From: Rhizobiaceae bacterium MnEN-MB40S
Lineage (GTDB): Bacteria > Pseudomonadota > Alphaproteobacteria > Rhizobiales > Rhizobiaceae
Assembly: GCA_024343425.1 (NCBI GenBank)
Contig: BRLC01000005.1
Location: forward strand, 1 to 64,000
DNA: 64,000 bases
Direction: 5' to 3'
The position numbers were made by a program, and so were the translations under genes. Each line of letters opens with the position of its first letter. Position 1 is the first letter of the stretch. The notes beneath the pieces are model-generated. The model worked only from the letters and a program-made list of their open reading frames with translations. It was not told where the DNA came from and ran no database searches. Positions 2,585 through 44,299 of this stretch are shown piece by piece.

Positions 2585-3385
2585 TCAAGCGGTCGTAAGC
2601 TGAGAAAGCGGCTGCGCCTTGTAGCGGCTCTCAATCACCGCATAATCCTTTGGCCGCATCGGCGAAAAGCCCGTCAGCAGAAGGTCGTTCCGGGTCTCCT
2701 CATCCAGTCCGGCCATGGCTTCCACCACGGCGCTGTGGATCCGGTCTGCTGACAAACGCCGGTCCCGTGCGCAAATATACGGCAGTCCGGGTGTGGGATC
2801 GGTTTTCTCTATGACCTTCACCATCCGCGCCGCAGGCTCGTGACGCTGCGCCAGACGCCAGCTTACGGCGTCGATGCTCGCGACATCGGCTTCGCCGTCC
2901 GCAACGCTTCGAATAGAGGCGCGATGCGAACCGGTGCAGATTTGATCTGCGACGGTTTCTGCGCCGCGTCCGTGTTTCCGCAATGTGTGTCCAAACGCCG
3001 AAAAGCCGGATTGCGAGACTGCGTTGTTGTACGCGAAGCGGAGATTTGCAAGGTCGTCGAACCCGGTCGCAGGGCAGTCCGCGTGAACGACGATCACGCT
3101 GTAATAGCTGCCGGCGCCGCAGGCGATATCGTAGGCTGGCGCGCCAAGCAATTGCACCTTGTCCTTCAGGCCAAGCACGTAGGGCAGTCCGCAGGTCTGA
3201 GCGAGCACGAGGCCAGGCGCGTTCCAGATTTCCGTTTCGCTCAGGGTTCTCTCAAGCCGTTCCGGCGCGGCAACGCCGTATTCCGCCAGATTGACCCGGA
3301 TGGCGCGCCAGAAACGATCGTTTGAACCTTGCAGTTCCGGCCAGTCATACATGGGCAGGGCGGCGATCGGCTCGCCGCCGCTCAT
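2585..3385 (-). CDS. PhnD-like periplasmic-binding-fold protein lacking a signal peptide
   Basis: The protein resembles PhnD-type substrate-binding components of phosphate/phosphite/phosphonate ABC transporters (266 aa). The start chosen is the ATG at 3385, which overlaps the desaturase stop as ATGA, indicating translational coupling; the frame is open further upstream but that part is shadow of the desaturase. No signal peptide or lipobox is visible, and no ABC permease or ATPase is adjacent, so classic transport is doubtful. It could act as a cytoplasmic ligand sensor or as an enzyme-like member of the fold. Its place between a desaturase and an FAD oxidase suggests a shared substrate pathway, but the ligand is unknown. 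Confidence 0.7.
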   Translation of the reverse strand: MSGGEPIAALPMYDWPELQGSNDRFWRAIRVNLAEYGVAAPERLERTLSETEIWNAPGLVLAQTCGLPYVLGLKDKVQLLGAPAYDIACGAGSYYSVIVVHADCPATGFDDLANLRFAYNNAVSQSGFSAFGHTLRKHGRGAETVADQICTGSHRASIRSVADGEADVASIDAVSWRLAQRHEPAARMVKVIEKTDPTPGLPYICARDRRLSADRIHSAVVEAMAGLDEETRNDLLLTGFSPMRPKDYAVIESRYKAQPLSQLTTA

Positions 3386-4308
3386 TGGTCGCTCCCGTCT
3401 GCCAGCGGATAGGGCACCGGCTCCTTTCGCCGAAACGCGAACGTCCGGATGATCTCCATGTAATTGCTGTAGCTGTAGCCGCGATTGAGTTTCAGGAACC
3501 GGTCGCGATGCCGCGCATAGAGCGACGGCAATTGATGCCAGGCAACGGACGGGTAGGCGTGATGCACGGCGTGCAGGTTGTTGTTCAGGAACAGCAGGCT
3601 CAGCGGACCGCGGTCTTCGATGATGACCGAGCGCCCGAGATGGCTCTCTTCGGCCTGGTGTTCGAGATAGGTCCGGATCATCAGGATGGACATGCCGAAA
3701 TAGGCGGAGACGAAATAGAGCCACAGCGGCATGCCGGAAATCACATTCACCGCGGCGAGCAGGAGCGCCACCAGCGGCAAATGCAGGACCCAGGCGAATA
3801 TGACATCGCGGTCGTTTTGAAAGATGGCCCGACCGTCCGATATTGCGAGGCGGATCAGTGATATCATCGGACCGATCAGCATACGGCCCGCAAGCGTGTT
3901 GTTGAATTCGAAAAACGTCTTCACGACGCGGGGCAGCTTGCTCCAGAAATCCTGCGCGAGATACCAGCTTTCCGGATCGTCATAGGGATCGCAGATATTG
4001 GCGTTCTGATGGTGGTCGAGATGAGAATCCTTGAAACGGAAATACGGGACATACAGTCCAATCGGCAGAACGACGACAGCGTCATTGGCTGCTGAATCAC
4101 GAAAAGGATGGCCGTGAATGCATTCGTGCTGCAGCGAGGAGTGCAGGGTGATGACCGGACAAAGCAACAGCGCCGCCACAATCCACGGCAGTCCGAAAGG
4201 GTTTATGAGAAGAAATAGCCATGCGGCGTAGCAAATCGTCAGAAGGCCGAGGGTGCGCCACTCGGATCGGTCTTTGAGAATCACCAGAATTTGTCCCCTT
4301 GTTTGCAT
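3382..4308 (-). CDS. Membrane fatty acid desaturase family protein
   Basis: Integral-membrane di-iron desaturase/hydroxylase. All three histidine clusters are present: HECIH at about residues 61-65, HLDHH at 96-100 and HAVHH at 246-250. Hydrophobic segments near residues 19-55 and 170-210 fit the usual four-helix topology. Length 308 aa is typical. The frame extends to a TTG at 4326; the ATG at 4308 is preferred, but neither has a strong ribosome binding site. The gene starts a coupled operon with the PhnD-like protein and the FAD oxidase, and faces an XRE regulator across an AT-rich spacer. Related enzymes act on fatty acyl chains, carotenoids or small alkyl amines; the substrate here is undetermined. 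Confidence 0.85.
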   Translation of the reverse strand: MQTRGQILVILKDRSEWRTLGLLTICYAAWLFLLINPFGLPWIVAALLLCPVITLHSSLQHECIHGHPFRDSAANDAVVVLPIGLYVPYFRFKDSHLDHHQNANICDPYDDPESWYLAQDFWSKLPRVVKTFFEFNNTLAGRMLIGPMISLIRLAISDGRAIFQNDRDVIFAWVLHLPLVALLLAAVNVISGMPLWLYFVSAYFGMSILMIRTYLEHQAEESHLGRSVIIEDRGPLSLLFLNNNLHAVHHAYPSVAWHQLPSLYARHRDRFLKLNRGYSYSNYMEIIRTFAFRRKEPVPYPLADGSDQ

Positions 4309-4398
4309 TGCACGATGCGCCTGCAAGCAAGGATGGACAATGTGAGAATAGGCGCATAATAATGTTTATATGTAGAGCAATGTAGTAGATATACATGA

Positions 4399-5286
4399 AT
4401 GATATCAAATGCTGTGAAAACGCAACAGGATGACGAAACCCATGGCGACAAACGCGATGTCGCGGAGATTTTCCGTGACCGCATGGCGCTTCTGCTGGCG
4501 CAAAAGGGTTTCAATCTCAGCCAGTTCGCCAAGTCCATCGGTATCGATCGCTCCGCGCTGAGCCAGTTTCTGGCGCCGGGCTCGACCCGTCTGCCCAGGG
4601 CCGAGACGCTGTGCGCGATAGCCCGCACCTGCGGCGTTTCGCTTGACTGGCTGATGGGGTTGATTGCACGGGATTCACTCGACAGCGAAAACGTCGAAAT
4701 GCTTGAAATCCAGCGCGTCAATCAGGAATCGGGGCGGCAAATCCTTTCCGTCTGGCACAAGGAGGCCATGGGCTACAAAATTCGATACGTCCCTAGCGAA
4801 CTGCCGGATCTGCTCAGAACCGAGGCTGTGCGCAAATTCGAATTCAACCTCAAGAATCCGGACGAGCGCGAATCGCGCGAGCAGCAGGCGAAGGACCAGT
4901 TGACCTATTCTCGTCTTCCGGAAACCGACATGGAAGTCTGCATGCCGGTTCAGCGGCTCGAGCAGTTTGCGAGCGGGCAGGGCATGTGGAACGGCCTGAG
5001 CGTGGAGGTCCGGCGCGAACAGCTCATGCACATGGTCACGCTCATCGACGAGCTCTATCCGACGTTTCGTCTGTTCCTCTATGACGGCCGGGAAGTCTAT
5101 TCGGCGCCTTACACGCTGTTCGGGCCGCTGCGCGCGGCGCTCTATGTCGGCGACATGTTTCTGGTCGTCAATTCAAAAGACCACATTCGCGCGCTCACCT
5201 CGCATTTCGACCACCTGATTCGCATGGCCCGCTTCGGCCCGGATCGCGTCGCCGGCAAGATTGTGGGACTGGCCAAGACGCTTTGA
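4399..5286 (+). CDS. XRE family transcriptional regulator
   Basis: DNA-binding regulator of 295 aa. A lambda-repressor-type helix-turn-helix spans about residues 24-75 (LSQFAKSIGIDRSALSQFL, then a second helix ending DWLMGL). The remaining 210 residues form an uncharacterised C-terminal domain without a recognisable cupin motif; it may bind a ligand. The gene is divergent from the desaturase operon with only about 90 bp of AT-rich spacer between the two starts, so control of that operon is likely but inferred. The start is the ATG at 4399; no strong ribosome binding site is seen, leaving a small uncertainty at the N-terminus. Confidence 0.8.
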   Translation: MISNAVKTQQDDETHGDKRDVAEIFRDRMALLLAQKGFNLSQFAKSIGIDRSALSQFLAPGSTRLPRAETLCAIARTCGVSLDWLMGLIARDSLDSENVEMLEIQRVNQESGRQILSVWHKEAMGYKIRYVPSELPDLLRTEAVRKFEFNLKNPDERESREQQAKDQLTYSRLPETDMEVCMPVQRLEQFASGQGMWNGLSVEVRREQLMHMVTLIDELYPTFRLFLYDGREVYSAPYTLFGPLRAALYVGDMFLVVNSKDHIRALTSHFDHLIRMARFGPDRVAGKIVGLAKTL

Positions 5287-5295
5287 CGCGACGGC

Positions 5296-5730
5296 CTAGT
5301 CGCGGAGGTGATGCTGCACTCTGCGAACATGCCGCAAGGTGTCCGTGATCATTGCCGTCATCAGTCCGAACATCAGGAAGCCGTTTGCGCCTGTCATGCC
5401 GCCCAGCAGCCGCAGGTCTTGAGGAACAACAATATCGCCAAGGCCAAGCGTTGTATAGGCGACCAGGGAATAATAGACCGCTTCTTCCAGCGTGCTGAAA
5501 ACCGACATCTGCTGGAAAATAATCGCCCATAACCAGACGCCGAATGTCGTCATGCCCATTGTTGAAATTGCGACCAGCGAGACAACAACGAATGATTTGA
5601 TGTGCTGGTTGGGACCACGAAGCCACGGCTCCATTCTCAGAAGCAATTCATTGAGAGCCGACCACATGAACGCGCCTCCCAGCAAAGACACCAGGGTGAT
5701 GACCGTTCCAAGCATCAATTGGCTCAACAC
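5296..5730 (-). CDS. Two-transmembrane potassium channel family protein
   Basis: Small ion channel subunit (about 144 aa) with the TM1-pore-TM2 layout of the Ion_trans_2 family. Hydrophobic segments lie near residues 5-25 and 45-68, and a last one follows the pore. The selectivity filter reads TTLGLGD instead of the canonical T-x-G-Y-G-D, so an aromatic residue is replaced by leucine; this variant occurs in proteobacterial channel-like proteins but selectivity is uncertain. There is no cytoplasmic RCK/TrkA domain. The start is a non-ATG codon: GTG at 5730 is chosen, and the frame continues to a TTG at 5757. It is divergent from the DoeA-like gene. Confidence 0.72.
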   Translation of the reverse strand: MLSQLMLGTVITLVSLLGGAFMWSALNELLLRMEPWLRGPNQHIKSFVVVSLVAISTMGMTTFGVWLWAIIFQQMSVFSTLEEAVYYSLVAYTTLGLGDIVVPQDLRLLGGMTGANGFLMFGLMTAMITDTLRHVRRVQHHLRD

Positions 5731-5968
5731 GTGGTAACCATCCTTTCGCTGATGCAACGCAACGCCGCAGAAGAAATTGTACCAATCAGCTCATTTCGAC
5801 ATCGAGTTTTGGACGAGACGAGCGAATGACTGCGGTTGCACTGATACTCCCAAATCCGGATTCTTAATTTTCTTTGCCATCTCCGTCAAAGGAGCGCGTC
5901 GCATATGGAATTGCGGTGGACTGAAAGTTGAGGCTAGATGGTGCCTTGATCAAAAGGATGGATGACCC
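5731..5968. promoter_or_regulatory. Divergent promoter region between channel and DoeA-like genes
   Basis: About 240 bp separates the start of the channel gene from the GTG start of the DoeA-like gene. Both promoters must lie here. No clear palindrome or consensus -35/-10 pair was identified by eye. Confidence 0.35.
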
Positions 5969-7159
5969 GTGACCGGAAACACCGACAAGCAACTGCCTTT
6001 CTCTCTAGATGAATACGCCGTGCGCCTTGGAAGGGTTCGCAAGGCGATGGAAGAGGCGGGCATAGAGCTTCTTGTCGTCACCGATCCCTCCAATATGGCG
6101 TGGCTGACGGCCTATGACGGCTGGTCCTTCTACGTCCATCAATGCGTGCTGGTCACCCTTGACGATGACCCGATCTGGTTTGGTCGTCTGCAGGATGGCA
6201 ATGGCGCAAAGCGCACCGTATACATGGACGACGCGCACATCCTGTCCTACCCCGATCATTATGTGCAGTCTCCGGTTCGTCACCCGATGGACGTGCTGTC
6301 GCAGATCGTCACCGACAGGGGATGGTCGAGCTTGGTGATCGGCGTCGAGATGGACAATTATTACTTTTCTGCCGCCGCCTTCGCCGCCCTGTTGAAAGGC
6401 CTGCCGAATGCGGATTTCAAGGATGCGACCGGCCTCGTCAACTGGCAGCGCGCCGTCAAGTCCGAACGCGAACTCGACTACATGCGCATCGCCGGCCGCA
6501 TCGTCGAAAAGATGCACCAGCGCATCTGGGACACGGTCAGGCCGGATATTCGCAAATGCGATCTGGTGGCGGAGATCTATGATGCTTCCATTCGCGGCGT
6601 CGGCGAATTCGGCGGCGATTATCCGGCCATCGTGCCGCTTCTGCCGTCGGGCGAGGACGCGGCCGCTCCGCATCTGACATGGGACGACAAGCCTATGCGG
6701 ACGGGAGAGGGCACCTTCTTCGAAATCGCCGGCTGCTACCGCCGCTATCACTGCCCGCTCTCCCGAACCGTGTTTCTGGGCAAGCCGACCCAGACCTTTC
6801 TCGACGCCGAGAAGGCCGTTCGGGAAGGGCTTGCAGCCGGTCTCGAAATGGCGAAACCCGGCAATCTCGCCGAAGATGTCGTCAACGCCTACTTCGCCAT
6901 CCTGAAGAAATACGGGATCGTGAAGGACAATCGCAGCGGCTATCCGATCGGTATTTCCTATCCGCCGGATTGGGGCGAGCGCACCTACAGCCTGCGGCCA
7001 GGCGACAAGACCGTGCTCCAGGAGAACATGACTTTCCATTTTATGACAGGTTTGTGGATGGACGATTGGGGTTTCGAGATCACTGAGAGCGTCGCAATCA
7101 CGGATGGCGATCCGGAATGTCTCGCCGATCTGCCGCGAGAGCTGGTCGTGAGAGACTAG
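5969..7159 (+). CDS. doeA: Ectoine hydrolase-like M24 family protein (DoeA/EutD)
   Basis: M24 (creatinase/aminopeptidase P fold) protein of 396 aa, the usual size of ectoine hydrolase, which opens the ectoine ring to N-acetyl-diaminobutyrate. The assignment rests on long stretches that match DoeA rather than prolidase: SNMAWLTAYDGWSFYVHQ near residue 37, EMDNYYFSA, APHLTWDD, GEGTFFEIAG and GYPIGISYPPDWGERT. The start is GTG at 5969, with AGGATGGA upstream. It is followed after 2 bp by an M20 deacetylase, so the two are one transcript. No doeB, doeC, doeD or ectoine transporter is in the window, so the substrate could be a related cyclic amidine; ectoine is the best guess. Confidence 0.82.
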   Translation: MTGNTDKQLPFSLDEYAVRLGRVRKAMEEAGIELLVVTDPSNMAWLTAYDGWSFYVHQCVLVTLDDDPIWFGRLQDGNGAKRTVYMDDAHILSYPDHYVQSPVRHPMDVLSQIVTDRGWSSLVIGVEMDNYYFSAAAFAALLKGLPNADFKDATGLVNWQRAVKSERELDYMRIAGRIVEKMHQRIWDTVRPDIRKCDLVAEIYDASIRGVGEFGGDYPAIVPLLPSGEDAAAPHLTWDDKPMRTGEGTFFEIAGCYRRYHCPLSRTVFLGKPTQTFLDAEKAVREGLAAGLEMAKPGNLAEDVVNAYFAILKKYGIVKDNRSGYPIGISYPPDWGERTYSLRPGDKTVLQENMTFHFMTGLWMDDWGFEITESVAITDGDPECLADLPRELVVRD

Positions 7160-7161
7160 AA

Positions 7162-8334
7162 ATGCAGGCTGCTGATCTCTCTCTGGACGTAGCCGAAGCA
7201 CTGCAGCGCGCGGTCGATATCCTCGACCAACTGGTGCGCTTTCCAACCCTGTCGGGCGAATCCAATCTCGATATGATTGCTTTCGTCACCCGGTATCTGG
7301 CCGATCATGGCGTCGTGTCGTCCATCTCGCATGACGAATCCGGACTGCGCGCCAATCTTTACGCCACGATCGGACCGGAGATCGACGGAGGCGTGCTCCT
7401 CAACGGCCACACCGACGTCGTGCCCGTCGAAGGTCAGGAATGGTCGAGCGACCCCTTTGAACTGCGTATCGTCGATGATCGTCTTTACGGGCGCGGCAGC
7501 GTCGACATGAAGGGGTTTCTCGCCTGCATGCTCGCCATGGCGCCCGAATTCAAGGCGATGCCGCTTGCAAGGCCTGTGCATCTTTCGATGTGCTACGACG
7601 AGGAAAATGGCGGTTTCGGCGCGCCGGTGCTCGCGGGCGATATCGTGTCCAAAACCTGGCGCCCCTCCGTCGCCATCGTTGGCGAACCCACGGAGATGCG
7701 CATGGTCGGGGCGCACAAGGGCGGGCTCGAACTCCGCACCGAGGTCACCGGGTTCGCCGCCCATGCCTGCGATCCCTCCAAGGGCGTGAACGCCATCATG
7801 ATCGCGGCCGACATGATCGCCCATCTGCGGAAACTGGCGCATGATCTTTCAGGGCGGATCGATTCCGAAAGTCCATGCGATCCGCCGCATGTCACCATCA
7901 ATGTCGGCACGGTTCATGGCGGCGCCGCCCGTAATGTTGTGGCCGGCGATTGCGCCTTCGATTGGGAAATTCGACCGACGCGCAGCGGCCAGGCGGAGAC
8001 TTTGCTGGAAGAGATCAACGACCATTTCACTACGAAACTGACGCCGGCCGGCGCTTCCTTCCAGACAACTGTTGAAGCTGTCGTGCCACCGCTGATGTAT
8101 GACTCTCAGTCGGCGGCAGCCCAACTGGTAGGAAAACTGACGGGCATGAATTCCGTCGGAGCAGTGTCTTTCGGAACCGACGCCGGGCACTTTCAGGCCA
8201 ATGGCATGTCGACAATCGTCTTCGGTCCGGGCTCCATCGATCAGGCGCACAAGCCGGACGAGTTCATCGAACTCGAACAGATCAGGCAATGTCTGCGGTT
8301 TCTGCACAAGCTGGGCGGTGAACTGTCCGCCTGA
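7162..8334 (+). CDS. M20 family deacetylase (ArgE/acetylornithine deacetylase-like)
   Basis: Zinc-dependent amidohydrolase of the M20 family, 390 aa, closest in motifs to acetylornithine deacetylase. Metal site residues are visible: H83 and D85 in GHTDVVP, D115 in GRGSVDMKG, the general-base and ligand glutamates 147-148 in YDEENGGFG, GEPTEM, and the terminal ligand histidine in GPGSIDQAHKPDEF. The ATG at 7162 is chosen, 2 bp after the DoeA-like stop, because upstream codons lie inside doeA. Acetylornithine and N-alpha-acetyl-diaminobutyrate are homologous substrates, so in this operon the enzyme may deacetylate the DoeA product in place of the unrelated DoeB. That is inference; ArgE function is the alternative. 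Confidence 0.82.
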   Translation: MQAADLSLDVAEALQRAVDILDQLVRFPTLSGESNLDMIAFVTRYLADHGVVSSISHDESGLRANLYATIGPEIDGGVLLNGHTDVVPVEGQEWSSDPFELRIVDDRLYGRGSVDMKGFLACMLAMAPEFKAMPLARPVHLSMCYDEENGGFGAPVLAGDIVSKTWRPSVAIVGEPTEMRMVGAHKGGLELRTEVTGFAAHACDPSKGVNAIMIAADMIAHLRKLAHDLSGRIDSESPCDPPHVTINVGTVHGGAARNVVAGDCAFDWEIRPTRSGQAETLLEEINDHFTTKLTPAGASFQTTVEAVVPPLMYDSQSAAAQLVGKLTGMNSVGAVSFGTDAGHFQANGMSTIVFGPGSIDQAHKPDEFIELEQIRQCLRFLHKLGGELSA

Positions 8335-8399
8335 GCGGCCATCATTCGACCAAATTGCTTTGAGACCTTGATCCCGTTGTCGAAAGACCGGAATGGGCA

Positions 8400-9134
8400 A
8401 TGGGCGGCTCGGTGTTATCCGGAATAATTGCGGAAAGACCTCTCAGGGGACCAGTCGACCAGACAGGCTCGCCTGCGACCGGGGTCGTGGCGTCCCTTTT
8501 CGTCCACGTCCTTTTTTTCCTTCTGCTCCTTATGTTGCTGCCGCTTCCCAAACCTTTGAGCCCTCTGATTCCCGACGCCGTGCGAGTGACGGTTGTCTCC
8601 AGGCTTCCCGCACTTCAGCTGCAACCGCCAAAAGAGGCGCCGCCAAGGGCTGCGCCTTCGCGTCCGTCAAAGCTGATTTCAATCAATCCCGAACGGCTTC
8701 GGCCGCGCCCGCCGGAGGCTCCGGCTCGAAAGGCGCCGGAGGAAAACAAAATGGTGCGCGCGACGCAGATTTTTGCCGGCGCGGTGCTCGCGACGCCGGA
8801 AGCCCGCCAGGCGCGGATGGCTTTGCCGACGCTTGTTGACGAAGACCGAAAGCTCCAGCTCTGCGGACTTGAAGCGATGGAGCAGATCCATGTCTGGGAC
8901 AACACGTTCCAGCCCGAGAGGCTCGTCGCCTACGCAATGGGGGACGCCAGGATCAGTGGAACCAGCGTGATCGCCGACGGCGCGGCCTTCCGCAGCCGCA
9001 GCCGCTGGTACAATCTGCAATTTCGCTGCGAGGTGACGCCGGACATGCGCGACGTCCTCGCGTTCGAGTTTGCGGTTGGCGAACCAATTCCCTACGAGGA
9101 CTGGCTGTCACACAATCTGGCGGCCATTCACTGA
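8400..9134 (+). CDS. DUF930 domain protein with TonB-like N-terminal anchor
   Basis: Protein of 244 aa with a single hydrophobic anchor at about residues 28-55 (VVASLFVHVLFFLLLLMLL), a proline/arginine-rich linker to about residue 120, and a C-terminal DUF930 domain. The domain carries the typical segments KLQLCGLEAMEQIHVW, GAAFRSRSRWYNLQF and FEFAVGEPIP. DUF930 proteins are found mainly in Hyphomicrobiales and have no proven function. The topology (short cytoplasmic N-terminus, anchor, Pro-rich linker, periplasmic domain) recalls TonB, but there is no TonB C-terminal domain. The two conserved cysteines could form a disulfide in the periplasm. It stands alone after the M20 deacetylase. Confidence 0.75.
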   Translation: MGGSVLSGIIAERPLRGPVDQTGSPATGVVASLFVHVLFFLLLLMLLPLPKPLSPLIPDAVRVTVVSRLPALQLQPPKEAPPRAAPSRPSKLISINPERLRPRPPEAPARKAPEENKMVRATQIFAGAVLATPEARQARMALPTLVDEDRKLQLCGLEAMEQIHVWDNTFQPERLVAYAMGDARISGTSVIADGAAFRSRSRWYNLQFRCEVTPDMRDVLAFEFAVGEPIPYEDWLSHNLAAIH

Positions 9135-10703: not shown

Positions 10704-10807
10704 TTCCCTGTTTCCTTCCCGCTCAAATGTTGATCGGTAGCCTGCAATCTATGGGAGTTCTGCGCGAGTCTCTGTGAGAAATGATACAGTTCGGGAAATT
10801 GCCGTTA

Positions 10808-10823
10808 CGGTCAGGATTGACCG
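10808..10823. promoter_or_regulatory. Inverted repeat upstream of paaZ
   Basis: CGGTCA and TGACCG are perfect inverted arms with a 4-nt spacer, 50 bp upstream of the paaZ ATG. The half-site TTGACCG also occurs in the paaG promoter, so a shared regulator is possible but not shown. Confidence 0.4.
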
Positions 10824-10873
10824 AATGGTTGGTTAATTTATACTGGCTGAATGGTATCGAACGGGAGGAAACG

Positions 10874-12904
10874 ATGGGACTGATGCAGGTATCGAGCTTT
10901 GCGGCAGGGCAGTGGATAGCGCCTTCCGGAACGACATCCAAATTGTATTCGGCTGCAAACGGTCAGATCATTGGAGAGGCTGGCTGCGACAGTCTTGATT
11001 TCCAGCAAATGCTGGATTTTGCGCGGGACAGGGGCGGTCCGGCGCTCAGAAAGATGACCTTTCATGATCGCGCGCGCATGCTGAAGGCCCTGGCGCTTCA
11101 TCTCAACGAGCGCCGCGACGGGCTCTATGCGCTGTCTTACATGACAGGGGCGACTTTGCCGGACAGTCGCATCGACATCGACGGCGGTATCGGCACGCTG
11201 CTGGTCTATGCGTCCAAGGGCAGGCGTGAGATGCCCGACGATCAGGTCTATGTCGATGGCGAAACCGAAATGCTGTCGCGGGAGGGAACGTTTCTCGGGC
11301 GACATGTCTGCACCCCTTTGACCGGCGCCGCGATACACATAAACGCATTCAACTTTCCGGTCTGGGGCATGCTTGAAAAGCTCGCGCCCACATTGCTCGC
11401 CGGGGTGCCGGCCATTGTCAAACCTGCGACGGCCACCTGCTGGCTGACAGAGGCCTGTTTCAAGCTGATGGTCGAGAGCGGCGTGTTGCCGGAAGGATCG
11501 GTCCAGTTGATTTCCGGTCGGACGGGCGATCTGCTCGACCGGCTCGACAGCAGGGACATCGTCAGTTTTACGGGATCCGCGGCGACTGCGCTGTCGCTGC
11601 GCTCCAAGGACAATATCCTCGCAAACTCCGTGCGATTCACGGCCGAACAGGACAGTCTCAATGCCTCGGTGCTTGGAACGGACATCGAGCCCGGCTCGCC
11701 GGATTTTGATATTTTCATCAAGGAAGCTGCGAACGAGATCACCACCAAAGCCGGACAGAAATGCACTGCGATAAGGAGAATCATCGCGCCGGCGTCACGG
11801 GTGGAAGCTGTCGTCGAAGCCTTGTCGAAGCGCCTTGCGGCCGTGACCATCGGCGATCCCTCGCTCAAGGAATCCGGAATGGGAGCGCTCGCTTCTGCTG
11901 AGCAGAAACGCGACACGCTGGAAAACGCCGCGCGGATCGGCGCGGAGTGCGAGCGCGTCTTCGGCGACGAGGAGGCTCCGGAGCTGACAGGCGCCGGGGT
12001 CGAGTATGGCTACTACCTCAAGCCCATGCTCTTCGTCTGCAATGATCCGGACGCCGCCAAGGCGGTCCATGAGGTCGAAGCCTTTGGTCCCGTCTCGACC
12101 GTCATGGGATATCGCGACGCCGAACACGCCATCGAGTTGGCGAACCGCGGCGGCGGGTCTATTGTCGCCTCAGTGGTCACGCGCGATCCGCGTACGGCGC
12201 GGGAATTTGTCCTGGGGGCGGGGGGCTCACACGGGCGGATCTACTTCAACAATCGCGATTCCGCGAAAGAAGCGACAGGTCACGGTTCGCCCTTGCCGCA
12301 CATGGTTCATGGCGGTCCGGGCAGGGCCGGCGGCGGCGAGGAACTGGGCGGCGTGCGCGGGGTCATGCATTACATGCAGCGCACCGCGATCCAGGCAAGC
12401 CCGGATCTGATGACAGGGATCACCGGAAATTGGATCCGGGGCTCGAAGGAAATCGCCGCGCCGGCGCATCCCTTTACCCGGACTTTTGGTGATCTTCAGA
12501 TCGGCGAGACCATTCACACCCCGTCGCGGGAAGTCGCGCTGGAGGATATCGAGCATTTTGCGCGATTCACCGGCGATACGTTCTACGCGCACATGGACGA
12601 AGCGGCGGCGAAGGCGAACCCGTTCTTTCCCGGCCGCGTCGCGCACGGCTATCTGCTGCTAAGTTTCGCCGCCGGCCTTTTTGTGGAGCCGAGCCCCGGT
12701 CCGGTGTTGGCGAATACAGGGTTGAACAGCCTGAGTTTCCAAATGCCTGTCAGTCCGGGCGATGCGATATCGGTTCGTCTTACCGTCAAGCGAAAGACGC
12801 CGCGCAATGACGAGTATGGAGAAGTAGCCTGGGACGTCGTGCTGACCAATCAGGACGGCGAGCAGGTGGCCGAGTACGAACTGCTGACAATGGTTTCCCT
12901 CTGA
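10874..12904 (+). CDS. paaZ: Bifunctional oxepin-CoA hydrolase / semialdehyde dehydrogenase PaaZ
   Basis: PaaZ hydrolyses the oxepin-CoA ring and oxidises the resulting aldehyde to 3-oxo-5,6-dehydrosuberyl-CoA in phenylacetate degradation. The 676-aa protein has an N-terminal aldehyde dehydrogenase domain (to about residue 525) with catalytic Glu in FTAEQDSLNAS and Cys in AGQKCTAIRR, and a C-terminal MaoC-like hydratase domain with FTGDTFYAHMDE and RVAHGYLLLS. The ATG at 10874 is chosen because GGGAGGAA sits upstream and the size matches PaaZ (about 680 aa). It lies 24 kb from the other paa genes in this window and in its own transcription unit. Confidence 0.93.
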   Translation: MGLMQVSSFAAGQWIAPSGTTSKLYSAANGQIIGEAGCDSLDFQQMLDFARDRGGPALRKMTFHDRARMLKALALHLNERRDGLYALSYMTGATLPDSRIDIDGGIGTLLVYASKGRREMPDDQVYVDGETEMLSREGTFLGRHVCTPLTGAAIHINAFNFPVWGMLEKLAPTLLAGVPAIVKPATATCWLTEACFKLMVESGVLPEGSVQLISGRTGDLLDRLDSRDIVSFTGSAATALSLRSKDNILANSVRFTAEQDSLNASVLGTDIEPGSPDFDIFIKEAANEITTKAGQKCTAIRRIIAPASRVEAVVEALSKRLAAVTIGDPSLKESGMGALASAEQKRDTLENAARIGAECERVFGDEEAPELTGAGVEYGYYLKPMLFVCNDPDAAKAVHEVEAFGPVSTVMGYRDAEHAIELANRGGGSIVASVVTRDPRTAREFVLGAGGSHGRIYFNNRDSAKEATGHGSPLPHMVHGGPGRAGGGEELGGVRGVMHYMQRTAIQASPDLMTGITGNWIRGSKEIAAPAHPFTRTFGDLQIGETIHTPSREVALEDIEHFARFTGDTFYAHMDEAAAKANPFFPGRVAHGYLLLSFAAGLFVEPSPGPVLANTGLNSLSFQMPVSPGDAISVRLTVKRKTPRNDEYGEVAWDVVLTNQDGEQVAEYELLTMVSL

Positions 12905-42681: not shown

Positions 42682-43203
42682 ATGGGCGTTGTCGTCGCAG
42701 ATGCGCTGAACCCGTCGAATGTCCGCTCTCGTCGAGCATGGGACGTGGCGGCGGCTGTGCCTGATCCTGAAATTCCGGTCGTCACCCTGGCCGATCTCGG
42801 GATCCTGCGCAGCGTCGAATGTGACGACGACGGCGCCGTCACAGCCAGGGTCACGCCGACCTATTCCGGATGTCCAGCCACGCAGCTGATCGAGCAGATG
42901 GTTCTGGAGGCGCTGAAGAGGGACGGTTTCGACAACGTGCGGGTGGAAAGCGTGATGAGCCCCGCCTGGACGACAGATTGGATTTCTGCGGAAGGCCGCG
43001 AGAAGCTGCGCGACTTCGGCATCGCGCCGCCCGTGAAGGCGTCCAATTCCATACGCGCCCTGTTCGGCGAAACCGCGGTCAGTTGCCCCTTGTGCGGTTC
43101 GGAAGACACCGAGCGCATCAGCGAGTTCGGTTCGACGCCCTGCAAGGCGCTTTACCGGTGCCGAACGTGCCTTGAGCCGTTCGACTATTTCAAATGCCTT
43201 TGA
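42682..43203 (+). CDS. paaD: Phenylacetate epoxidase-associated protein PaaD (DUF59/FeS)
   Basis: Protein of 173 aa, required for epoxidase activity and related to FeS assembly proteins. The N-terminal MIP18/DUF59 domain has AAVPDPEIPVVTLADLGIL and YSGCPATQLIE; the C-terminal zinc-ribbon-like part carries CPLCGSEDT and YRCRTCLEPFDYFKC, six cysteines in all. It lies between paaC (7 bp) and paaE; its stop comes 10 bp before the paaE ATG. PaaD's exact role is not settled. Confidence 0.92.
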   Translation: MGVVVADALNPSNVRSRRAWDVAAAVPDPEIPVVTLADLGILRSVECDDDGAVTARVTPTYSGCPATQLIEQMVLEALKRDGFDNVRVESVMSPAWTTDWISAEGREKLRDFGIAPPVKASNSIRALFGETAVSCPLCGSEDTERISEFGSTPCKALYRCRTCLEPFDYFKCL

Positions 43204-43213
43204 GGATCAGGCG

Positions 43214-44299
43214 ATGGCGCAGTTTTACCCGTTGAAGATCAAGCATATCGTTCGCGAAACGCCCGACGCCGTCTCCGTCAGTTTTGACGTGCCGGAGGAG
43301 GCCAGGGAGCGTTTTGTGTTCGTGCCTGGCCAATATCTCACGCTCCGCGCCAAGATTGCGAATGAGGATCTGCGCAGAACCTATTCTATTTGCAGCGGAA
43401 TCGATGATGGTGATCTGCGCGTGGCCATCAAGCGCGTGGATGGCGGCGTGTTCTCCGGCTTCGCCAATGACAATCTCGAAGTGGGCATGGAGATCGATGT
43501 GATGCCCCCGCTGGGGCGCTTCACGAACGCGGCTGATCCGACCGCACGCAACGACTATGTGGCCTTCGCGGCGGGGTCCGGCGTCACGCCGGTGTTTTCG
43601 ATCGTCAAATCCGTGTTGTCCCGTGAACCCGCCAGCACCTTCACGCTGTTCTATGGAAATCGCGACCGCAATTCGGTGATTTTCCGCGAGGAACTCGAGG
43701 ACCTGAAAGACCGATTCATCGACCGCTTCACCCTTGTGCATGTTCTGAGCCGTGAGGCGCAGGACGTCGACATTCTGCACGGTCGCATCGATGCGGACCG
43801 GATTCGTAAATTCGCGGAGAACAAGCTGTTCGATCCGCGGTCAGCATCGAAAGTCTTTCTGTGCGGTCCTGGCGAGATGATCGACGACGCGCGTCGGGTG
43901 CTGGAAGATCTGGGCGTGGAGTCGGATCGCATCCGGTTCGAGTTGTTCACCCCGGCCGATGGAGGCGCCGCAGCGAAAAAGGGCGTCGTTCCTTCGCCAT
44001 CTGCAGCGCACGGCAAGGGCGTGTCGGTCGAAGCCGTAATGGACGGCGTGCGGTCAACGTTTTCGATGGAGGGCGCCGACGGCAATGTCATCGACGCCGC
44101 GCATCGTCAGGGCATAGAACTGCCCTATTCCTGCAAGGGCGGCATGTGCTGCACCTGCCGGTGCAAGCTGGTCGAAGGCAAGGTCGAGATGGCCGAAAAC
44201 TATTCCCTGGAGCCTTGGGAACTCGACGCCGGCTACATCCTGTCCTGTCAGGCCCGTCCGCTGACCGAGAAAGTCGTGCTCGATTTTGACGACGTGTGA
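43214..44299 (+). CDS. paaE: 1,2-phenylacetyl-CoA epoxidase reductase PaaE
   Basis: NADPH-dependent FAD/2Fe-2S reductase of about 361 aa that feeds electrons to PaaAC. The FAD-binding RRTYSICSG motif is near residue 55, the NAD-binding GSGVTPVFSIVK near residue 118, and the plant-type ferredoxin domain at the C-terminus carries Cys ligands in YSCKGGMCCTCRCKLVEG and ILSCQAR. The start at 43214 (MAQFYPL) is preferred; the frame also opens at 43172 inside paaD. It is the last gene of the operon. Confidence 0.94.
   Translation: MAQFYPLKIKHIVRETPDAVSVSFDVPEEARERFVFVPGQYLTLRAKIANEDLRRTYSICSGIDDGDLRVAIKRVDGGVFSGFANDNLEVGMEIDVMPPLGRFTNAADPTARNDYVAFAAGSGVTPVFSIVKSVLSREPASTFTLFYGNRDRNSVIFREELEDLKDRFIDRFTLVHVLSREAQDVDILHGRIDADRIRKFAENKLFDPRSASKVFLCGPGEMIDDARRVLEDLGVESDRIRFELFTPADGGAAAKKGVVPSPSAAHGKGVSVEAVMDGVRSTFSMEGADGNVIDAAHRQGIELPYSCKGGMCCTCRCKLVEGKVEMAENYSLEPWELDAGYILSCQARPLTEKVVLDFDDV

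Follow-up and report, generated by a model that had tools for sequence, protein, structure and literature searches.

Which enzyme removes the acetyl group from opened ectoine when the gene behind the ectoine hydrolase gene doeA is not doeB? This question is raised by a stretch of 64,000 nucleotides from Rhizobiaceae bacterium MnEN-MB40S (contig BRLC01000005.1, positions 1 to 64,000; hereafter the window), in which doeA, also called eutD, is followed by a gene for a deacetylase of the M20 family that resembles the acetylornithine deacetylase ArgE. We think it likely that these two genes form a two-enzyme module for opening ectoine in which the second enzyme has been exchanged. In such a module, DoeA would hydrolyse the ectoine ring to N-alpha-acetyl-L-2,4-diaminobutyrate, and the M20 protein, a putative di-zinc amidohydrolase of the ArgE type that is probably co-translated with DoeA, would cut off the acetyl group to yield 2,4-diaminobutyrate and acetate, a step that is elsewhere the job of the M14-type enzyme DoeB (EutE). 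The original prediction held DoeB to be unrelated to M20, which agrees with its placement in the M14 aspartoacylase group in the excerpted text of PMC3187862; the same excerpts report that a doeB deletion in Halomonas elongata accumulates N-alpha-acetyl-diaminobutyrate. The genes in question are arranged as follows.

5969..7159, + strand: doeA/eutD, ectoine hydrolase (M24, creatinase-like), 396 amino acids, GTG start (TIGR02993)
7162..8334, + strand: ArgE-type M20-family deacetylase, 390 amino acids, ATG start (PRK07522, TIGR01892, Pfam M20 and M20_dimer)
5296..5757, - strand: small K+ channel (Ion_trans_2), divergent from doeA (PF07885, E-value 2.6e-8)
5758..5968, no strand: intergenic region between the K+ channel gene and doeA, presumably with both promoters (open reading frame map)

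The open reading frame map and the family models confirm the three genes first claimed here, a DoeA-like hydrolase, an ArgE-type deacetylase and a K+ channel, at their places. The M20 gene was also said to lie directly behind doeA, and this holds for its likely start, the ATG at 7162, which leaves a gap of 2 nucleotides after the doeA stop; an earlier start at 7117, which would overlap doeA, is the less likely of the two.

The hydrolase and its M20 neighbour

Judged by its sequence, the protein encoded at 5969-7159 is the ectoine hydrolase DoeA. It scores 739.9 bits against the TIGR02993 equivalog (cut-off 613, a margin of 127 bits), and its best matches among solved structures are those of H. 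elongata DoeA (PDB 6twj and 6twk, E-value 3.7e-164). It retains 126 of the 131 columns that are invariant among 29 DoeAs partnered by DoeB, and six distant DoeA-like proteins of about 42% identity retain 86-89 of these same columns.

The M20 protein passes both PRK07522 (438 bits, cut-off 412) and TIGR01892 (362 bits, cut-off 297.7), and does not pass another ArgE equivalog, PRK05111 (251 bits vs a cut-off of 460). TIGR02994, the model for DoeB of the M14/aspartoacylase type, is not among the 25 best of its 55 NCBIfam matches, and the single match that TIGR02994 finds in the same genome lies on a contig other than that of the M20 gene. A structure model of the protein has a mean predicted local distance difference test (pLDDT) score of 92.4, and the nearest fold identified by Foldseek is that of Escherichia coli ArgE (8uw6), with a template modelling (TM) score of 0.80 and 32% identity in the structure alignment. 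Seven residues (His83, Asp85, Asp115, Glu147, Glu148, Glu175 and His363) are invariant in a 34-row alignment, and we take these to be the metal-binding and catalytic residues of the co-catalytic M20 peptidases. Residue 190, counted from the 7162 start, is a Glu where E. coli ArgE aligns a Ser, and this Glu190 might bind the free amine of the substrate.

Since the protein scores above the cut-off of the ArgE equivalog TIGR01892 and its predicted fold resembles that of E. coli ArgE, it could be read as an ordinary acetylornithine deacetylase of arginine synthesis that stands beside doeA by accident. However, ArgJ, which renders ArgE unnecessary in arginine synthesis, is over its cut-off in all 15 DoeA-M20 genomes tested, that of the window included, and M20 is therefore not needed for this pathway. 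This accidental placement is also at odds with the recurrence of DoeA-M20 adjacency in ten family groups, with the presence of M20 within full ectoine operons, and with the position of all DoeA-paired M20s on one side of the M20 tree. On the strength of ArgJ in 15 of 15 genomes we reject arginine synthesis as the role of M20, and regard it as extremely unlikely.

Partners of DoeA across the order

We searched 397 genomes of the taxonomic order with the window M20 protein, TIGR02993 and TIGR02994, and then matched the positions of the hits. DoeA was counted from 550 bits upwards and a DoeB neighbour within 400 bases, with the window's own pair included; M20 matches were used only down to an E-value of 9.0e-93 and few candidates were scored per genome, such that some DoeA genes recorded with neither partner may have missed partners. 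Among the matches listed, the 107 DoeA genes that reach 550 bits have a DoeB neighbour in 46 cases, an M20 neighbour in at least 37, neither in 24 and both in none; for the 94 genes over the cut-off of 613, the corresponding numbers are 46, at least 25, 23 and 0. M20 lies downstream of doeA on the same strand in every one of the 37 pairs listed, and the 37 genomes fall in ten family groups. DoeB, at an E-value of 1e-100 or below, is found in one of these 37 genomes vs 47 of the 67 other DoeA genomes (Fisher p 2.5e-12, kinship ignored). Closer to the window, the gene order helix-turn-helix (HTH) regulator, K+ channel, doeA, M20, DUF930 is common to both congeners compared; because this arrangement is kept in the two congeners and DoeA-M20 adjacency recurs across the order, the pairing is not a matter of chance.

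A more sensitive search for DoeB covered 23 DoeA-M20 genomes, namely 20 of the 37 together with G001, G002 and G423 (the last with doeA split over two frames). TIGR02994 has no match at an E-value of 0.001 or below in 13 of these; among the remaining ten, six have matches of less than 80 bits only, three, which make up the window genus, have matches of 287-294 bits, and one (G283) has a real DoeB. In the named collection, a DoeA relative lies directly upstream of M20, on the same strand and within 480 bases, in 15 of 80 loci among the matches listed, 14 of these relatives being 54-62% identical to Sinorhizobium meliloti DoeA and one being of the 43% type. The paired loci include those of Nitratireductor luteus, Falsiruegeria mediterranea, Pelagibacterium lentulum, Pseudooceanicola nanhaiensis and Thioclava dalianensis, and none of the 80 loci has, among the matches listed, a DoeB relative beside DoeA.

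For 21 of the 24 DoeA genes with neither partner, the surroundings were compared with an ectoine panel, DoeB and M20 (25 stretches, 22 of them distinct and one outside the 397). In one case (G078), the opposite flank of doeA carries eutC with an M20 (41%) next to it, and in another (G083) a doeB fragment follows doeA; the other 19 have no DoeB or M20 relative at an E-value of 1e-4 within the stretch. A neighbouring open reading frame in five of the cases with neither partner encodes a VTT domain, a subtilase (twice), imelysin and, once, a protein without a family match.

The M20 gene is also found inside complete ectoine operons. Six genomes of one family share the order eutA-eutB-eutC-doeA-M20-ssd-atf-asnC, with doeA split over two frames in one of them. 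The far side holds enuR; four of the stretches contain this arrangement in full, and in two it is truncated where the stretch ends. Here ssd and atf were sought with the intact proteins of locus L098 and were found in all six operons; family models applied to one of these operons identify a TRAP large permease upstream and, downstream, a gene of the succinate-semialdehyde dehydrogenase type together with a PRK07482 aminotransferase. In these six operons M20 occupies the slot behind doeA in which S. meliloti has doeB. The non-orthologous replacement of DoeB by an ArgE-type M20, as first proposed for the window, is thus upheld by the lack of a DoeB over cut-off in the window's genome and its two near-complete congeners, by the finding that the two enzymes never stand together beside any one of the 107 DoeA genes, and by full operons in which M20 occupies the slot of doeB; the genome comparison suggests that DoeB has been replaced by M20 in many related bacteria.

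Outside the window genus, 17 wider DoeA-M20 loci were compared (L098-L102 and L104-L115): relatives of eutA, eutB or eutC are present in 12 and an atf relative in 10, with L111 having atf in the absence of the three eut genes; in L106 and L108, ehu genes, eutB, eutC and asnC stand beside the pair. A different setting was seen on a Mesorhizobium plasmid (L119, 1-17152), where doeA and an M20 gene labelled argE are accompanied by genes for sarcosine oxidase, an M20 aminoacylase and another M24 peptidase. A gene for an oxygenase ferredoxin lies upstream, and the stretch has no eut or ehu relatives; this is possibly a betaine or creatine-like catabolic island.

The history of the proposed exchange was followed in quick trees of both proteins. 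In the DoeA tree (82 rows), the partner label requires 6 changes between M20 and DoeB alone, and the window genus forms a clade of its own, separate both from the operon family and from a 24-row clade with 23 rows of the M20 type. Loci for the M20 tree (114 rows) were chosen by likeness to M20 or DoeA, and a length filter dropped L139 (paired), L152, L190 and L086. A 99% split divides the tree, with all 41 DoeA-paired rows together on one side and 55 rows, none of them paired, on the other. Glu190 follows the same division, being present in 41 of 42 paired rows (the window M20 counted twice), in 17 of the 18 unpaired rows on the same side, and in 0 of the 55 rows on the other. Eight of these 18 unpaired M20s are from SAR11 (L161, L162, L170, L175, L179, L183, L188 and L196), and no DoeA relative was found in the SAR11 stretches examined around them; on a further SAR11 contig, L190, a span of 9 kb contains relatives of DoeA (48%) and EutA together with another M20.

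The window genus and competing readings

The genome that contains the window is 79% complete, and two congeners are listed as 99% complete. All three have EhuB over its cut-off (306 vs 190.9) and ehuABCD, in order, at a locus away from doeA-M20, so that the search for ectoine uptake genes put forward in the original prediction has found them in the genus. Both congeners have the PRK07482 aminotransferase (Atf) over its cut-off of 687 (827 and 830), and their atf adjoins eutC and an AsnC regulator gene, again away from the pair; in total, 12 of the 15 DoeA-M20 genomes searched have Atf over cut-off. No relative of the operon ssd was found in the ehu or atf stretches of the genus, where aldehyde dehydrogenase was not sought by family. 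A marker of ectoine synthesis, ectB, has no match above its cut-off in any of the genus's three genomes and has one in three other DoeA-M20 genomes, 11 having been searched. The most economical reading is that the window genus consumes ectoine with a pathway split over several loci. Ectoine would be imported by EhuABCD, diaminobutyrate would be converted to aspartate by an aminotransferase of the Atf/DoeD type and an aldehyde dehydrogenase, and the genes concerned would be spread over at least three loci; growth on ectoine and its regulation we infer.

Several observations weigh against an exchange of DoeB for M20 in ectoine breakdown. Within 15 kb around the pair, the two congeners have no relative of eutABC, ehu, asnC or enuR, and 5 of the 17 wider loci likewise lack eutA, eutB and eutC. 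The best Atf match in the window's own, 79% complete, genome scores 563, under the cut-off of 687, and Atf over cut-off is also absent from G103 and G416, both of which are complete. G283 combines the two types within a single genome, at separate loci, its second DoeA being accompanied by its own DoeB. In the M20 tree, the paired side comprises 59 rows, 18 of them unpaired (L146, with DoeA 477 bases away, and L096, which ends at a contig end, being no real exceptions), and an M20 subgroup on this side partners the distant DoeA-like protein of about 42% identity. M20 deacetylases are, moreover, promiscuous as a class. Finally, three EutE relatives below cut-off in the window genus (287-294 bits) could deacetylate the product of DoeA.

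The last of these points leads to a competing account for the window genus, in which the EutE relative is the real deacetylase and M20 does something else. A doeB search of the genome had been proposed alongside the replacement; it returned none over the TIGR02994 cut-off of 402.7, either in this 79% complete genome or in the two near-complete congeners, and one relative of 294 bits (C26:49848-50813), with counterparts of 293 and 287 bits in the congeners. Besides its presence in all three genomes, this relative adjoins a serine/threonine dehydratase gene related to EutB (PRK07476, 242 bits vs a cut-off of 413), as would fit a role in ectoine use. Nevertheless, it falls about 108 bits under the cut-off, its further neighbours in the window's genome (L016, 8808-12676) are an IclR regulator, a lactonase-like gene and a sugar-type ATP-binding cassette transporter, and a search with the ectoine panel found no doeA in the 19 kb around it. 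Because an EutE relative of at least 80 bits is lacking from 19 of the 23 DoeA-M20 genomes searched, the pairing with M20 is independent of such a relative, and we consider this account improbable.

It could also be argued that DoeA-M20 pairs act on some other cyclic amidine or N-acylated amino acid. The DoeA-like protein of about 42% identity, with its 86-89 of 131 columns, is paired with M20s from the same side of the tree, and the Mesorhizobium plasmid pair has sarcosine oxidase genes nearby and no eut or ehu relatives in its stretch. Yet the window DoeA lies 127 bits over the equivalog cut-off and keeps 126 of the 131 columns, one family has DoeA-M20 together with eutABC, ssd, atf, asnC and enuR, and the window genus has ehuABCD, with eutC, asnC and atf in both congeners. 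For the pairs considered here, a substrate other than ectoine thus appears very unlikely. Loci that combine the DoeA-like protein with M20 were seen in L116 (8387-10750), L122 (516-2887), L081 and L083; among six other neighbours typed in L116 and L122 there was no ectoine gene, and two had no family match. This subgroup may serve another cyclic solute.

With the ectoine module as the preferred reading for the window, a broader view can be offered only tentatively, and is in our estimate rather doubtful: the M20 subfamily marked by Glu190 may be the second main ectoine deacetylase of Alphaproteobacteria, standing beside about a third of the sampled DoeAs, having taken the DoeB slot more than once, possibly extending into SAR11, and with a side branch for an unnamed ectoine-like solute.

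The divergent K+ channel gene, whose product contains TTLGLGD, presumably a selectivity-filter-like motif, had been suggested to connect the turnover of compatible solutes with ion balance. This proposal is upheld in part, since the channel gene is a kept neighbour of doeA in all three genomes of the genus, but no homologue was found in the other DoeA-M20 loci compared, many of them short; a role for the channel in an ectoine system would accordingly be genus-specific, and is speculative. In congener G001, a K+/H+ antiporter-like gene (under its model's cut-off) near the ectoine-type aminotransferase forms a parallel to the K+ channel beside doeA. The same stretch (L240, 2670-12441) places eutC, the AsnC regulator and the aminotransferase beside glucosylglycerate-type and other solute genes, which resemble those for glucosyl-3-phosphoglycerate synthase, mannosyl-phosphoglycerate phosphatase, sucrose phosphorylase and diaminobutyrate decarboxylase. 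It is a possible compatible-solute island, in which most solute and antiporter genes score under the cut-offs of their models.

Upstream of the K+ channel gene, positions 3382-5286 hold a fatty acid desaturase gene and a divergent HTH regulator gene (4399-5286). We doubt that this HTH gene regulates the doeA-M20 pair; neither of the stretches around its two plasmid relatives has annotated ectoine genes, and the relative in Phaeobacter sp. G2 (L233) adjoins a relative of the window's desaturase, while that in Mesorhizobium (L232) lies near efflux genes in a stretch without a desaturase relative. A consensus promoter scan of 5250-8500 gave 2 sites vs a mean of 1.3 in shuffled sequences and so no support, and consensus terminators and promoters were in no clear excess over shuffles. 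Elsewhere in the window, PaaZ and PaaE homologues (phenylacetate breakdown) lie at 10781-12904 and 43172-44299, about 30 kb apart.

Comparison with known ectoine systems

Published surveys have largely been built on the eutD-eutE pair. As far as excerpts of these papers go, a 2021 paper drew its data set of 363 genomes from Mais 2020, with entry restricted to cases in which eutD and eutE are juxtaposed, and EutD-EutE are thought to act together as a bimodule (PMC8739950); a 2026 survey focused on genomes with EutD, EutE and EutB, and describes, as tentative, eutD clusters without eutE in Thermodesulfobacteriota and in Bacillota, the latter with abgB (PMC13188858). An older account, likewise in excerpt, notes that some genomes lacking further genes for ectoine degradation carry doeA homologues of 30-45% identity, and that doeA and doeB lie separately in two genomes (PMC3187862). 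In the open literature, as far as its accessible text goes, we found no statement that M20 replaces DoeB in Proteobacteria; most subscription papers lie outside this search, and novelty is not proven. If the replacement is true, surveys that define ectoine consumers by the eutD-eutE pair would miss a sizeable share of them among Alphaproteobacteria, a step in ectoine use would be hidden under an arginine-synthesis name, as with argE in the Mesorhizobium plasmid record, and the system would offer a clean test of an unrelated metallo-deacetylase taking over the step of an enzyme that presumably cooperates with DoeA. The ectoine pathways of such bacteria have probably gone unnoticed or been annotated under the names of arginine genes.

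Compared with the DoeA-DoeB/EutD-EutE systems of Halomonas elongata, Sinorhizobium meliloti and Ruegeria pomeroyi, the DoeA-M20 systems have the same first enzyme and the same operon slot for the deacetylase, together with, in six M20-type genomes of another family, the companions eutABC, ssd, atf, asnC and enuR. They differ in the second enzyme, which is an M20 of the ArgE type here and of the M14 aspartoacylase type there (PMC3187862, excerpted text), and, in the window genus, in a pathway that is split over several loci. E. coli ArgE (PDB 7rsf and 8uw6) shares its fold, domains and aligned M20 motifs with the window M20, whereas the two are 32% identical, the window M20 has a doeA partner and Glu190 in place of Ser, and ArgJ covers arginine synthesis. 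The known substrate of ArgE is one carbon longer than N-acetyl-diaminobutyrate. We take abgB to belong to another M20 branch. The Bacillota abgB clusters, in the excerpts of PMC13188858, resemble the present loci in that eutE is reported absent and an amidohydrolase gene lies near eutD, and differ in phylum and gene order, abgB not being assigned the EutE step there. Beside these systems, M20-for-DoeB appears as a variant of the known ectoine pathway that is wider in reach than the single window shows, and in which the proposed replacement is well supported by gene content and gene order.

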